Shown one piece after another: positions 6,838 to 11,690 of a DNA stretch of 34,830 nucleotides. Every line of letters begins with the position of its first letter. The first letter of the stretch is position 1. A program made the position numbers and the translations under genes. This DNA is from Candidatus Zixiibacteriota bacterium. Its GTDB lineage: Bacteria; Electryoneota; B3-LCP. The stretch is taken from contig QZKQ01000019.1 in the NCBI GenBank assembly GCA_003599535.1, positions 1 to 34,830 of the forward strand. Reading direction: 5' to 3'. The notes beneath the pieces are model-generated. The model was not told the origin of the DNA, did not search any database, and saw nothing but the letters and a program-made list of their open reading frames with translations.

Positions 6838-9537
6838 TTACTTCGCCTCCCCTGTCAACACGAAGGCGGCCCAGGCATGCAGGCCGGAGTACTTATCCCG
6901 GGTATCCAATTGCGCTCGGCGCAACGCCGTGGCTTTGTCCTGTGTTTGTAGATAGTGGTGGAAGCGCTCCGCCAGGTACGCCGTGGAGGCGTCTTCCACC
7001 TGCCACAGCGACGAGAGTACCGAGGGCGTTCCGGCATAGAGAAAAGCCCGGGTCAAGCCCACCACTTCATCTCCATTGGTCAGATGACCCAGTCCCGTCT
7101 GGCATCCCGACAGCACCACCAGGGAAGCGTGCAGGTCCATCCCGAAGATTTCGTGAACGGCCAGCTCCCCGTCTTCGGTCGAGTCCGGGGCCAGGAGCAG
7201 GCAGGAAAACAGGGGATAGGCGGCGTTCAGGTCGCCGTGGCAGGCGAGGTGCAGGACATCATAATCCGCGGCATGGGCTTTGAAATGTGCTTCGGTGGCC
7301 TGCGGCCCGGCCAGCACCAGGGCGCGCCGGTACCAGTTCCCGATTTGCTGCACTTCAGCCTGGGCCTGGGGCAGGGCGGGGTAACCTTCCCGGGCGGTGG
7401 CAGGATTGCCCAGGGCCAGGAGACGCTGCCCCCGGGGGCGGCGTTTGGGGATTAGGTAAGGTATGACGGAAGCGGAGGGGAGATAGCGCAGAGTGTAGTC
7501 GTCCAGCAGGTACCTGCCTTCGGGATTCTGCAGGGCGGCAAAGGGAAGATAGTGCAGGATGCCGTGGGGCACGATGACCAGATCTTTGGCCTCCAGCTTC
7601 CCGGCGGGGGCGATCAGCAGATCGTAAAGTTGCCGGGACAGGCGCTGCGCGGCGGGCTGGTCTTCCGTTTCGATGGCCTGGCGGAAGGCCAGCACCAAGG
7701 CTTTCAGACTGTCGCCGCCGATCGCCACCGTGAAGACTTCCGCCTGCTTGCGGGTGACGGCCCACAGCAGGGCCTTTTCTTCGGTAAGGAAGTATTCCAG
7801 CAGGGTGGTGCCCTTATCCAGCAGTTTCTGCACTTGGGGCAGGGTCAGGGGGTCCACGGAGACCAGGGAGGCCAGTTCTGGCTCCTGGCGCTTCTGCTCT
7901 TCCAGCCCGGCCAGGACTGCGCCCCAATCTCCCTCCAGCTTGCCTCGCAGGAGAACCACTTGGGCGGTGTCTTCGCCGGCCTGCTGGATCAGCCGTTCAG
8001 TCTCTTCCTTCTGCTGGTAGTACTGGTTCTCCCGGGCCAGGAATTCACGGTGCCGCGGCTTGCCGATCTTCACCTGCCCGGAAGCCAGCAGGTCCAGAAA
8101 GGAGCGGGCCCGGGCGCGCTCGGCGTAGTGGAAGGCGGGGGGAAAATTTTGATGTTTATTGAGAAGCAGGATGATTTTCTCATAGTATTTTGAGTACTTC
8201 GAAGCATAATTGCTCTTTTGGGATTCACTTTGGAGATGACCGCGAATAGTCTCGGCCATTACTATGGACTTGTCAAAAAACGATATTGCTGATGAATCGT
8301 TTCCTTTGAATTCGTAGCCTTTAGCCATTTGGCTGTAAATATCCATTATTACGCCTTTAGCACCGTTCCGTTGCATGACTGGTAAGGCCTGTATTGCACT
8401 TTCCAGAGCAAGGTCGTATTGCTTTATTTCGAGACAAAAGCTTGAATAAATAACTCGAAACGCAGCCAGCAAATCCTCGTTTTTCAAATTCTCGGCTATC
8501 TTAAAGCTTCTGTCGAAATAATCCTTTGCCTGTCCCATATCTCCCATCATCTGATTTGTTCGGCCTATTACATGATAACATACTGCAATACTTCGCTTAT
8601 CATCAACTTTCTGGAAATATTCTAGAGCTTCGAAAAAATCTGGTAAAGCGTTTTGAAGATTTTGATCTTTACTGCTGATAGTTTCTACTCCTCGACCCAT
8701 TACGGCAGAAGCTATCAGGTATGGATTACCCAATTCTCTGCTGAGTTCAACGTTTCGCTGAAAAATTTCCAACGCTTCCGTGCGATATCCCAATGTACCG
8801 TATATTAAGGCGAGGTTTGTATTCACCTGGCATTCTCCGAGTTTATCGCTTATCGATCTATATAATTCCGAGCTACTTTTAAAGTATTCAAAAGCATGTT
8901 GATAATTTCCATATGATTTCTGTATTAATCCGATAGTATTCAAGACGTATGCCTCATTCTTCTTGTCGTCGATGATTCTGAACAACTTCAGACTCTCTTC
9001 AGCCATTATTTGTGCGCTGTCAAATTTAGCCATATTCACCACAAAATGACGAGCCAGTGCTGAGAGAGCCGATGCTTTGGTGCTATCAGCCCCAATCTCA
9101 TGGGCTACTTTTATGCTCTTTAACAACATATCTATTCCTAGGCTGTCTTGTGAGAGGGTCAAATAAGTACGGCCCAATAACCTCAAAGCTTCGCATTCAT
9201 CCGCTACGAGTCCGCACACTCGCGCTGTGTTCATGCTGCGCTCGAAGAAAGTAAGGGCATCTTGACCTTTTTTTAAATTAACCAAAGTCATACCTACCGA
9301 TCGTGACGTGCGAGTCTGATTCTCTAGTGCACCAATCTGAATATAATTATATAAAGCTGACTGGTATGCCTTCAATGCTTCCTCCAGTCTGCCCTTTGAT
9401 GTTAAAGTGTCCCCCTGCTCCACATAAGCTTCCGCTTCCGCCTTCACCTTCACCGTGTCCACCACCTGGGAGTGGACAGACGCCGCTGCCAGCAGCAGCG
9501 CAGCGGCCAGAGACAATGCTGCCATGAGAGAACGCAT
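6838..9537 (-). CDS. Exported TPR-CHAT caspase-like protease
   Basis: The protein has 899 residues. An N-terminal signal peptide (about 1-23, ending SVHSQ) is followed by a long helical TPR array (about 25-440), a charged coiled-coil region (about 490-580) and a C-terminal CHAT domain (about 620-895). The caspase-like dyad is visible: His767 in HLACHGDL and Cys812 in LSGCQTGLG. CHAT proteins are cysteine peptidases of the separase/caspase clan. The signal peptide suggests this one acts outside the cytoplasm. AGGAGGG 5 bases before ATG supports the start. The TPR-coding DNA (about 8150-9400) is only about 40% GC while the CHAT part and neighbours are above 60%, which suggests a mosaic origin. 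Upstream on the same strand are a sigma factor and a TPR-bearing anti-sigma factor. A functional link is inferred. Confidence 0.9.
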   Translation of the reverse strand: MRSLMAALSLAAALLLAAASVHSQVVDTVKVKAEAEAYVEQGDTLTSKGRLEEALKAYQSALYNYIQIGALENQTRTSRSVGMTLVNLKKGQDALTFFERSMNTARVCGLVADECEALRLLGRTYLTLSQDSLGIDMLLKSIKVAHEIGADSTKASALSALARHFVVNMAKFDSAQIMAEESLKLFRIIDDKKNEAYVLNTIGLIQKSYGNYQHAFEYFKSSSELYRSISDKLGECQVNTNLALIYGTLGYRTEALEIFQRNVELSRELGNPYLIASAVMGRGVETISSKDQNLQNALPDFFEALEYFQKVDDKRSIAVCYHVIGRTNQMMGDMGQAKDYFDRSFKIAENLKNEDLLAAFRVIYSSFCLEIKQYDLALESAIQALPVMQRNGAKGVIMDIYSQMAKGYEFKGNDSSAISFFDKSIVMAETIRGHLQSESQKSNYASKYSKYYEKIILLLNKHQNFPPAFHYAERARARSFLDLLASGQVKIGKPRHREFLARENQYYQQKEETERLIQQAGEDTAQVVLLRGKLEGDWGAVLAGLEEQKRQEPELASLVSVDPLTLPQVQKLLDKGTTLLEYFLTEEKALLWAVTRKQAEVFTVAIGGDSLKALVLAFRQAIETEDQPAAQRLSRQLYDLLIAPAGKLEAKDLVIVPHGILHYLPFAALQNPEGRYLLDDYTLRYLPSASVIPYLIPKRRPRGQRLLALGNPATAREGYPALPQAQAEVQQIGNWYRRALVLAGPQATEAHFKAHAADYDVLHLACHGDLNAAYPLFSCLLLAPDSTEDGELAVHEIFGMDLHASLVVLSGCQTGLGHLTNGDEVVGLTRAFLYAGTPSVLSSLWQVEDASTAYLAERFHHYLQTQDKATALRRAQLDTRDKYSGLHAWAAFVLTGEAK

Positions 9538-9867
9538 GGTACCCTCCTGTAATCAAAGGATTTTTATAATGCGGGATGTAGTTATCCGAGTGACCGGGAT
9601 ATCCGAGGAAGCAAATGGACGATAAGGGAATGGATGGGTCAGGCCGGTATTGCCAATGTTCCCACATGCACCGGGAGGATCAAGGGCTCAGGGCGGGGGT
9701 TTGGATTTAAGTCAGGTGACGGTAGGAGGGCATCAGGGCAGTGGAATCGATCTCCCCGCCAGTATTGACGGGGTAATATAATCAGGGGGTGTTCACAAGT
9801 CAACATATATATCACGAGTTTTTTATAGAATTTCATTCCCGAATTTGGATTCTATCTGCTTTCGCCG
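9538..9867. other. 330-bp intergenic region upstream of TPR-CHAT
   Basis: No convincing gene is present. On the minus strand it holds a sigma-70-like promoter (9775-9803) and therefore a predicted leader of about 230 nt before the TPR-CHAT start. An AT-rich stretch lies upstream of the -35, and an inverted repeat ATAGAAT...ATTCTAT (9825-9855) has a 7-bp stem and 17-base spacing. I see no clear riboswitch fold. Confidence 0.6.
9775..9803 (-). promoter_or_regulatory. Sigma-70-like promoter of the TPR-CHAT gene
   Basis: On the minus strand TTGACT (9803-9798), a 17-base spacer and TATATT (9780-9775). Transcription would start near 9768, giving a leader of about 230 nt. An AT-rich, UP-element-like stretch sits just upstream. 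Confidence 0.55.
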
Positions 9868-10719
9868 TCACCGGTCCGCCGCCTGAAGACGGGTCCGCAG
9901 CGCCTCGGCTTGGGAGGTGTATTCGCCACCGCGGCGGATGATATCGTCCAATAGCAGCCGAGCCTGGTCCGGTTCCTCCAGCGCCAGCCAGGCCTGCGCC
10001 AGATACCAGCGGGAAGTAATTTGAAGCGGTTTATTGACGGCTTCCTGCGCCCGGAGCAGCGCCGGGACGGCGTCCCGATATTGATGATTCAGGTAGCGGC
10101 TGACTCCCAGGTAGAGCCAGTAGCGGTCTTCCGCGGGCGCCAGGTCCACCGCACGTTCCAGGTGGCCGGCAGCTTCGCCGTAGCGGCCCTGCAGATACGC
10201 CTCCATGCCCGTTTCGAACGCCTCCCGCGCTTCCGCCGGCGGTTCCACCGTCCCCCGGTAGGTGGAGGGCGTGTAGGACGCGGGGGAAAAGTCCAGGTAG
10301 GGCCGGTAGGGATTGCGGCCCGTCACCAGCACCAACAGCAGGATGAAGGCCGCGGTGGAGGCGGCTGGGATCCAGACCGCCGGCCGGTTGAACCGCTCCC
10401 ACCAAGCGCGCAGCCGTGCCCGCAAGTCTTTCCGCCGATTCCCGGGTTCCAATTCCGGCTCTTGCGGCAGTTCGGCCGGCGAATCGGCGGGAAAGCGGAC
10501 CCCCCTTCGCTCCAATTCCGCCAGGATGGCTTCGCGGTGAGTCCGCATCCGGGCCATCAACGGTTCGGCCTTCCGCAGTTCTTCCAGACAGAAGGGGCAG
10601 ACCATCAGGTGCTCTTCGAAGCGGCAGCGGCCGGCTTCGTCTAACCGGTCGAATTCGTAGAGGAGAAGCAGGCGGCCTACTGCTTCGTCGGTGCATTGCG
10701 GTGGCACGATCGGTTCCAT
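9868..10719 (-). CDS. Membrane zinc-finger anti-sigma factor with exported TPR domain
   Basis: The protein has 283 residues. The ATG at 10719 overlaps the sigma factor stop (TAATG). The cytoplasmic N-terminus carries a zf-HC2-type zinc finger, with HLMVCPFC giving His37, Cys41 and Cys44 and an upstream Cys (Cys9 or Cys32) as possible fourth ligand. One membrane helix follows (about 114-133, VWIPAASTAAFILLLVLV). Residues about 165-280 form three TPR-like helical repeats (for example EAYLQGRYGEAAGHLERAV), predicted to lie in the periplasm. zf-HC2 proteins next to ECF sigma genes usually hold the sigma factor inactive. The external TPR part would sense a partner or signal. The exported TPR-CHAT protein encoded next is an obvious candidate, which is inference. 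Confidence 0.85.
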   Translation of the reverse strand: MEPIVPPQCTDEAVGRLLLLYEFDRLDEAGRCRFEEHLMVCPFCLEELRKAEPLMARMRTHREAILAELERRGVRFPADSPAELPQEPELEPGNRRKDLRARLRAWWERFNRPAVWIPAASTAAFILLLVLVTGRNPYRPYLDFSPASYTPSTYRGTVEPPAEAREAFETGMEAYLQGRYGEAAGHLERAVDLAPAEDRYWLYLGVSRYLNHQYRDAVPALLRAQEAVNKPLQITSRWYLAQAWLALEEPDQARLLLDDIIRRGGEYTSQAEALRTRLQAADR

Positions 10720-11318
10720 TAGCGAATGTCCCCCACCAGCAGCCGGAGGCGTCTGCGGCAGTCGAAAACGCGTTTGTCGAAGGCGCTGCGCTGCAATTCC
10801 GGTTCGCGGCCCCGGAAGTAACTCCACAGCTCCTGCAGGCTGCGCTCCTGCAACAGACCGAGGAAGAGGTTGCGGCAGAAATCCGGCAGGCTTTCGAGCG
10901 CGTCGGCGACCATCCGCACCGTCTCGCGCAGCTCAATTCCGCTCAGAAAGCCGTCGCTGTCTTCGGGATACTGCGCAGGAAGGGCCGGAGACCGGTCCGG
11001 ATTATCCGCGGCGTCCGCCGAAAGGGTGACCGTACCGGGTCTACGGCGCTGTAGAATGTTGCCGATCTTGTGGCGCAGGATTTCGCAGGCGTAGGCCTGG
11101 GGATTGGAATGCACGGAATCCAGTTTCTGCAGGAAAGTGTACAAGCAGTCCTGGACCACGTCTTCCTGATCCTGGCGCGACCAGCCCCACAGTCTATGTT
11201 TGGCCAATTGGCGCAATCTTACCGCCAATTCCTGGCACAGGGCTTCCCGGGCTTGCACTTGGCCTGCCTGAGCCTGGCGCAAAAGCTCATCCCACCCGCC
11301 GGGGCTTTCCTGCAGCAT
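10719..11318 (-). CDS. ECF-like RNA polymerase sigma factor
   Basis: The protein has 199 residues. The start at 11318 (MLQESPGG...) has GGGAG 5 bases upstream; an upstream ATG pair at 11399/11396 lacks a ribosome site but lies only about 10-13 bases past the predicted transcription start. Region 2 is at about 20-90, with the typical core DVVQDCLYTFLQKL and a basic end RHKIGNILQRRR. A variable linker follows, then region 4 helices at about 145-199 (LPDFCRNLFLGLLQERSLQELW). The long linker and unusual region 4 suggest a divergent ECF group. It shares one base with the anti-sigma gene, so the two are translationally coupled. Confidence 0.85.
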   Translation of the reverse strand: MLQESPGGWDELLRQAQAGQVQAREALCQELAVRLRQLAKHRLWGWSRQDQEDVVQDCLYTFLQKLDSVHSNPQAYACEILRHKIGNILQRRRPGTVTLSADAADNPDRSPALPAQYPEDSDGFLSGIELRETVRMVADALESLPDFCRNLFLGLLQERSLQELWSYFRGREPELQRSAFDKRVFDCRRRLRLLVGDIR

Positions 11319-11415
11319 TGAGCTCCCGACTGTAAAACGGAGTTGGCGTGCTGGTATTCGAAACCCGACCAGCCACAATCTGCCTACCGGATGCATCATG
11401 ATCGAAAGTGACGGA

Positions 11416-11445
11416 AATATACGAAATTACCAGTTGCTTTGTCAA
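11416..11445 (-). promoter_or_regulatory. Sigma-70-like promoter of the sigma/anti-sigma operon
   Basis: On the minus strand a perfect TTGACA (11445-11440), an 18-base spacer and TATATT (11421-11416). The start would be near 11409, about 90 nt before the chosen sigma ATG. It looks like a housekeeping promoter rather than an ECF autoregulated one. Confidence 0.6.

Positions 11446-11614: not shown

Positions 11615-11690
<76 letters not shown>

Follow-up and report, generated by a model that had tools for sequence, protein, structure and literature searches.

A conserved ECF sigma factor, membrane anti-sigma factor and predicted exported TPR-CHAT protein module with an invariant linker arginine as candidate cleavage site

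The window (the whole stretch of DNA analysed, 34,830 nucleotides) lies in a draft genome of 3.77 Mb and carries, on its minus strand, genes for a sigma factor (SIG), an anti-sigma factor (ANTI) and a TPR-CHAT protein (CHAT), in agreement with a sequence-only reading that had placed three same-strand genes in positions 6,838 to 11,445 (Table 1). The gene order is SIG-ANTI-CHAT; the ATG of ANTI, at 10719, overlaps the stop codon of SIG by a single base (TAATG), and 330 bases separate ANTI from CHAT. A tRNA-Pro (GGG) gene (11616-11690) immediately precedes SIG in the same direction, with a terminator-like hairpin (11600-11572) between the two. Elsewhere in the window, the genes at 5708-4512 and 6761-5844 lack counterparts in the relatives' loci and are not counted with the module, and a 713-aa protein (234-2375) ends in a C-terminal Por_Secre_tail sorting domain; proteins like it border several of the loci described below, and may belong to the regulon.

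Table 1. Features of the sigma factor, anti-sigma factor and CHAT genes in the window
Feature	Position	Strand	Basis
Promoter 5' of SIG, sigma-70-like, TTGACA-18-TATATT	11416..11445	-	11/12, consensus match only
SIG, predicted ECF-type sigma-70 factor	10719..11399	-	Sigma70_r2 E=2.5e-4; TIGR02985, TIGR02937
ANTI, predicted membrane anti-sigma factor, 283 aa	9868..10719	-	zf-HC2 matches in relatives
ANTI zf-HC2 motif H37-x3-C41-x2-C44	10588..10611	-	H, C, C invariant, 53/53 class-1 anti-sigma factors
ANTI single TM segment, residues 114-132	10324..10380	-	hydropathy 2.35; model helix 113-132
ANTI external linker, residues 133-161	10237..10323	-	mostly coil in model
ANTI Arg155 codon, invariant linker Arg, predicted P1 residue	10255..10257	-	sequence conservation
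ANTI external TPR domain, residues 162-282	9874..10236	-	TPR_2 E=6.8e-7; TPR fold match
Separate promoter in ANTI-CHAT gap, sigma-70-like, TTGACT-17-TATATT	9775..9803	-	10/12, consensus match only
CHAT, predicted exported TPR-CHAT protein, 899 aa	6838..9537	-	signal-like N terminus, TPR array, CHAT domain
CHAT signal-peptide-like N terminus, residues ~1-23	9469..9537	-	h-region mean hydropathy 2.45
CHAT protease domain, residues 631-897	6847..7647	-	PF12770 E=4.7e-72
CHAT putative catalytic His767 codon	7237..7239	-	invariant, 37/37 module CHATs
CHAT putative catalytic Cys812 codon	7102..7104	-	invariant, 37/37 module CHATs

Profile matches predict SIG to be an ECF-type sigma factor with sigma-70 regions 2 and 4; the profile of its family matches solved ECF sigma factors (SigH, SigE, SigW, RpoE) over regions 2 to 4. 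Its translation likely starts at 11318 (Met28), because the alignments of relatives begin at that residue. By its zinc motif, one predicted TM segment and position adjoining SIG, ANTI would fit class I (zf-HC2, ZAS-type) of the anti-sigma factors; ANTI itself gives no zf-HC2 Pfam match at E<0.01, whereas its relatives do match. The mean pLDDT of the structure model is 84.3 for CHAT and 78.5 for ANTI.

CHAT is assigned, from its sequence, to the CHAT (PF12770) caspase-fold proteases, its domain scoring 243 bits against a curated cut-off of 24. The putative dyad is intact, with His767 and Cys812 sitting where the sequence-only reading had placed them. The CHAT model has a long TPR array followed by the CHAT domain, and in the PDB its fold comes nearest to those of DdvA (an anti-sigma factor from Myxococcus), Csx29/Craspase and human separase. 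An invariant residue, Asp849, was considered as the presumed equivalent of the Arg-binding residue of separase, and then dropped. The assumption of a periplasmic rather than a cytoplasmic protease, on which the sequence-only reading depended, is borne out in that the N terminus is signal-like (predicted export). No second CHAT gene was found in the host genome besides that of the window.

The genomes compared are draft metagenome assemblies; those named neighbours of the host genome carry the labels candidate division LCP-89 and Zixibacteria. Among genomes of the host family the triad is kept at 31-41% identity, and a CHAT search of six family genomes gave four more loci, in three genera, each with adjoining SIG and ANTI homologs. 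Across the host phylum the SIG profile matches 14 of 39 genomes; 12 of the 14 have a CHAT gene within ~6 kb, one has a Peptidase_C14 gene and one is cut off by a contig end. The neighbourhood is thus conserved, as the sequence-only reading had expected, although the order is not, since the closest relatives have CHAT-SIG-ANTI, and the SIG-ANTI-CHAT order of the window matches that in Zixibacteria. Genome G029 has no CHAT genes, and the slot upstream of SIG-ANTI (L051) is taken by a protein of 1164 aa that is membrane-anchored at its N terminus and carries WD40 repeats and a Peptidase_C14 domain in which the expected His and Cys are present. One caspase-clan enzyme has replaced another at this locus, with the linker arginine of the anti-sigma factor, discussed below, being kept. 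Other arrangements in the set include a 703-aa anti-sigma factor (L050:1877-3988), the external part of which ends in Ig-like and Por_Secre_tail sorting domains, and, with no sigma gene beside them, exported CHAT proteins 2700-2830 aa long (L016, L017, L018, L019, L111), in each case (5/5) preceded by a 183-aa gene.

Within Zixibacteria the module is widespread, and it is also present in genomes of other lineages. The ANTI profile matches 99 of 134 Zixibacteria genomes, the weaker matches including plain TPR proteins; 40 loci, around the stronger matches, were read and contain two classes of anti-sigma factor. Class 1 proteins are ~220-240 aa (one is 289 and one 331), and have an external domain that is not TPR. 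For class-1 loci found by ANTI alone, CHAT lies within 6 kb, on either strand, in 20 of 29, for which random placement gives P ~4e-31, a value that ignores shared descent. Four of the nine remaining loci (L124, L132, L133, L147) end at a contig edge beside ANTI; at the other five (L112, L114, L117, L130, L143) the linker arginine is kept and CHAT is absent from the locus, the sole CHAT found in the genome with L143 (G121) being distant from it and of a 920-aa type. Among the 20, L118 has a nearby CHAT of a 908-aa type that lacks a signal peptide, with a subtilase (Peptidase_S8) gene between it and ANTI (L118:7319-10915). Class 2 proteins are of zf-HC2-TM-FlgO/CsgG-TPR type, 755-778 aa (L126, L139, L140, L141, L142, L144, L148, L149, L150), with one 499-aa fragment; their loci have SIG, but a CHAT neighbour in 0 of 11 and no linker arginine motif, and so serve as an internal control. 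The difference in CHAT adjacency between the classes gives a Fisher P of 1.5e-4; the sequences behind all of these counts are related, so the samples are non-independent. Sampling 384 genomes across the domain brought up further triads in three more genomes (L153, L154, L156), and in L156 the whole triad is duplicated in tandem. Spread of the module on plasmids was rejected as an explanation, tblastn with ANTI against plasmids having returned no matches. SIG, ANTI and CHAT form a conserved module, linked far beyond chance in several lineages.

The predicted topologies of the anti-sigma factor and the protease are coupled in 45 of 45 pairs, signal peptides and TM segments being judged by simple hydropathy. 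All 40 ANTIs with a TM segment have a partner protease that is exported or anchored, with a strongly hydrophobic N terminus, and the five partners without a TM segment (L061, L094, L098, L099, L100) go with a CHAT that has no signal peptide (Fisher P=8e-7, ignoring relatedness). Protease and anti-sigma factor thus change compartment together, as expected if the two must meet. L061 (1492-6300) is a member of the module, with the linker arginine kept in an anti-sigma factor without a predicted TM segment. The others (L094, L098, L099, L100) are of a second, cytoplasmic triad kind, found in Zixibacteria genomes and G039, in which a partner of 196-243 aa with a conserved G-[VI]-R-P stretch adjoins a TPR-CHAT of ~920-940 aa; an ECF-like sigma gene is upstream in L098 and L100.

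The position of Arg155 in the external linker of ANTI, which is coil in the model, is occupied by arginine in 57 of 57 class-1-type ANTIs, i.e. 34/34 from Zixibacteria, 19/19 of the host-phylum type and four from other lineages (from L153, L154 and L156). The residue lies ~24-26 residues (median) outside the membrane, and the next position holds S, G, A or T in most ANTIs and D, E, N or V otherwise; in the Zixibacteria ANTIs the arginine is the sole fully invariant column outside the membrane. Arginines were counted group-wise because aligning the two groups together put the column in the wrong place. That the arginine is an alignment artefact was considered and rejected, since the group-wise alignments share one column in 34/34 and 18/19; in the 19th host-phylum protein, that of L061, it is offset by one residue and reads AFRAGS. 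A basic residue stands about as far out in class-2 proteins, but it can be either Arg or Lys, precedes Leu, Val or Met, and starts the FlgO-type domain; for these reasons it is not regarded as the same motif.

The linker arginine precedes external domains that differ, being TPR in some lineages and non-TPR in Zixibacteria, and this bears on the sequence-only reading, in which a CRISPR-independent relative of the TPR-CHAT/sigma systems recognised or cut the external TPR domain of the anti-sigma factor, the repeats on both proteins suggesting direct contact. The first part of that reading is upheld by the conserved neighbourhood, the predicted export of the protease, the coupled topology and the lack of clustered repeats or a CRISPR array within the 34.8 kb window, on which ground a CRISPR link was rejected. 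The second part is not, because the CHAT partner stays in Zixibacteria, where the external domain is non-TPR; recognition of the TPR domain is therefore rejected as a general rule, and TPR-TPR contact is left unsupported. The linker arginine is a better candidate for the cut site than the external TPR domain. Orthocaspases of the C14 kind cleave after positively charged residues (PMC6426788), which fits the arginine being kept in L051.

We lean, with modest confidence, to the proposal that the three genes act as one module, in which CHAT cuts ANTI after the linker arginine and so frees SIG. The proposal builds on the conservation and linkage of the genes, their predicted topology, the intact catalytic residues, the invariant arginine and the exchange of CHAT for C14 with that arginine kept; the five class-1 loci that have the arginine and lack CHAT speak against it. 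The zf-HC2 cytoplasmic domain of ANTI would tether SIG at the inner membrane, and CHAT would be secreted to the periplasm, where its TPR array may sense a signal. Once activated, the caspase-fold His767/Cys812 site, with an S1 preference for arginine, would cut ANTI after Arg155, ~24 residues outside the membrane, removing the external domain. A second cleavage of ANTI, by a general intramembrane protease, would then release SIG to transcribe its regulon; M50 intramembrane-protease homologs are present in the host genome, which adds little as M50 peptidases are universal. For the wider proposal, that a widespread CRISPR-independent family of periplasmic caspase-fold enzymes, in which C14 can replace CHAT, acts as site-1 protease for membrane anti-sigma factors by cutting after the invariant arginine, the chances seem to us evenly balanced.

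It may be that CHAT is an output rather than the activator, with SIG turning on the CHAT gene, CHAT acting on some other exported target and ANTI being cut by a different site-1 protease, for example a DegS-like one. ECF sigma factors often have neighbouring genes among their targets, and some ANTIs with the arginine have no CHAT at their locus, both of which would suit such an arrangement. It does not readily account for the coupling of topology in all 45 pairs, or for a slot that can be refilled by a different caspase-clan protease; CHAT is also retained, though convergent, in L097, L113, L122, L131 and L136, and has its own sigma-70-like promoter in the window. We consider this explanation unlikely. 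An improbable one gives CHAT a non-proteolytic role, as co-sensor or co-inhibitor, in which it binds and shields the linker arginine or the external domain of ANTI in the manner in which RseB shields RseA. The large TPR array fits such a role, as does DdvA, a fused relative that joins anti-sigma factor and TPR-CHAT in a single chain, but the putative catalytic His and Cys are invariant among module CHATs in which most other positions drift, and in L051 the substitute, likewise a caspase, retains its two catalytic residues.

Linkage might also arise without direct contact, in a defence or envelope-stress island the genes of which share a regulon and serve separate physical pathways. The exported proteins with C-terminal sorting domains that are often in the flanks are in accord with such an island; against it are adjacency kept in several lineages, the tandem copies of the entire triad in L156 and, again, the coupled topology of anti-sigma factor and protease, and we regard this as the least probable of the explanations considered. 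Cleavage of ANTI by CHAT after the linker arginine is preferred to these readings. If it is correct, the module supplies a large exported class of CHAT/caspase homologs with a substrate, a target residue and a read-out, and amounts to a transcription switch that works across the bacterial envelope and is gated by a caspase; we know of no natural targets for most bacterial CHAT/caspase homologs.

One of the two nearest precedents is the type III-E Craspase/CASP system (Cas7-11, Csx29, Csx30, CASP-sigma), where the inhibitor of an ECF-type sigma factor is cut by a TPR-CHAT protease that has a His/Cys dyad (PMC10028731); the CHAT domain of the window aligns with that of Csx29. Craspase, however, is cytoplasmic and RNA-guided and has Csx30 as inhibitor, whereas a predicted exported protease and a zf-HC2 membrane ANTI are present here; the window CHAT scores 60.2 bits against the Csx29 equivalog, the cut-off of which is 300, and is not Csx29. 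The Craspase idea, of a caspase cutting a sigma inhibitor, would exist beyond CRISPR, in the cell envelope, if the proposal is correct. Craspase cleavage sites are not conserved between orthologs (PMC11106740), so an invariant arginine would set the module family apart; by the same token an invariant P1 residue is unlike the best-studied TPR-CHATs, which counts against the proposal.

The other is the Myxococcus xanthus DdvS/DdvA pair, in which an ECF sigma factor is accompanied by a transmembrane anti-sigma factor that is joined to TPR-CHAT sequence. In fold, the window CHAT matches DdvA (8rw5, 8rot) best of all, the CHAT domain also being shared by sequence (E ~1e-5), but in DdvA anti-sigma factor and CHAT are fused, whereas they are two genes in the window and the module loci examined; the signal inactivating DdvA was left open in PMC4374960. 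ECF54 has conserved CHAT, subtilase and carboxypeptidase neighbours and proposed proteolytic control; as described, it lacks an anti-sigma factor (PMC8999054), whereas ANTI here overlaps SIG. In the openly accessible literature searched, no description of a split, exported version was found, though an earlier account elsewhere is possible, and the terms 'CHAT domain' and 'anti-sigma factor' occur together only in the Craspase paper.

Separase (Peptidase C50) has a helical repeat array and caspase fold, and is a close fold match to CHAT, which also matches Pfam C50 weakly (E=0.0037); unlike CHAT, it is the eukaryotic protease of cohesin. The proposed logic also resembles the regulated intramembrane proteolysis of RseA and RsiW, where a membrane anti-sigma factor receives an external site-1 cut (as proposed for ANTI) and the sigma factor is released. 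The site-1 protease for anti-sigma factors of the RseA/RsiW type is DegS or PrsW; here the proposed enzyme is a caspase-fold CHAT (or C14) protease, and thus, if the proposal is correct, another kind of site-1 protease for anti-sigma control would join DegS and PrsW.
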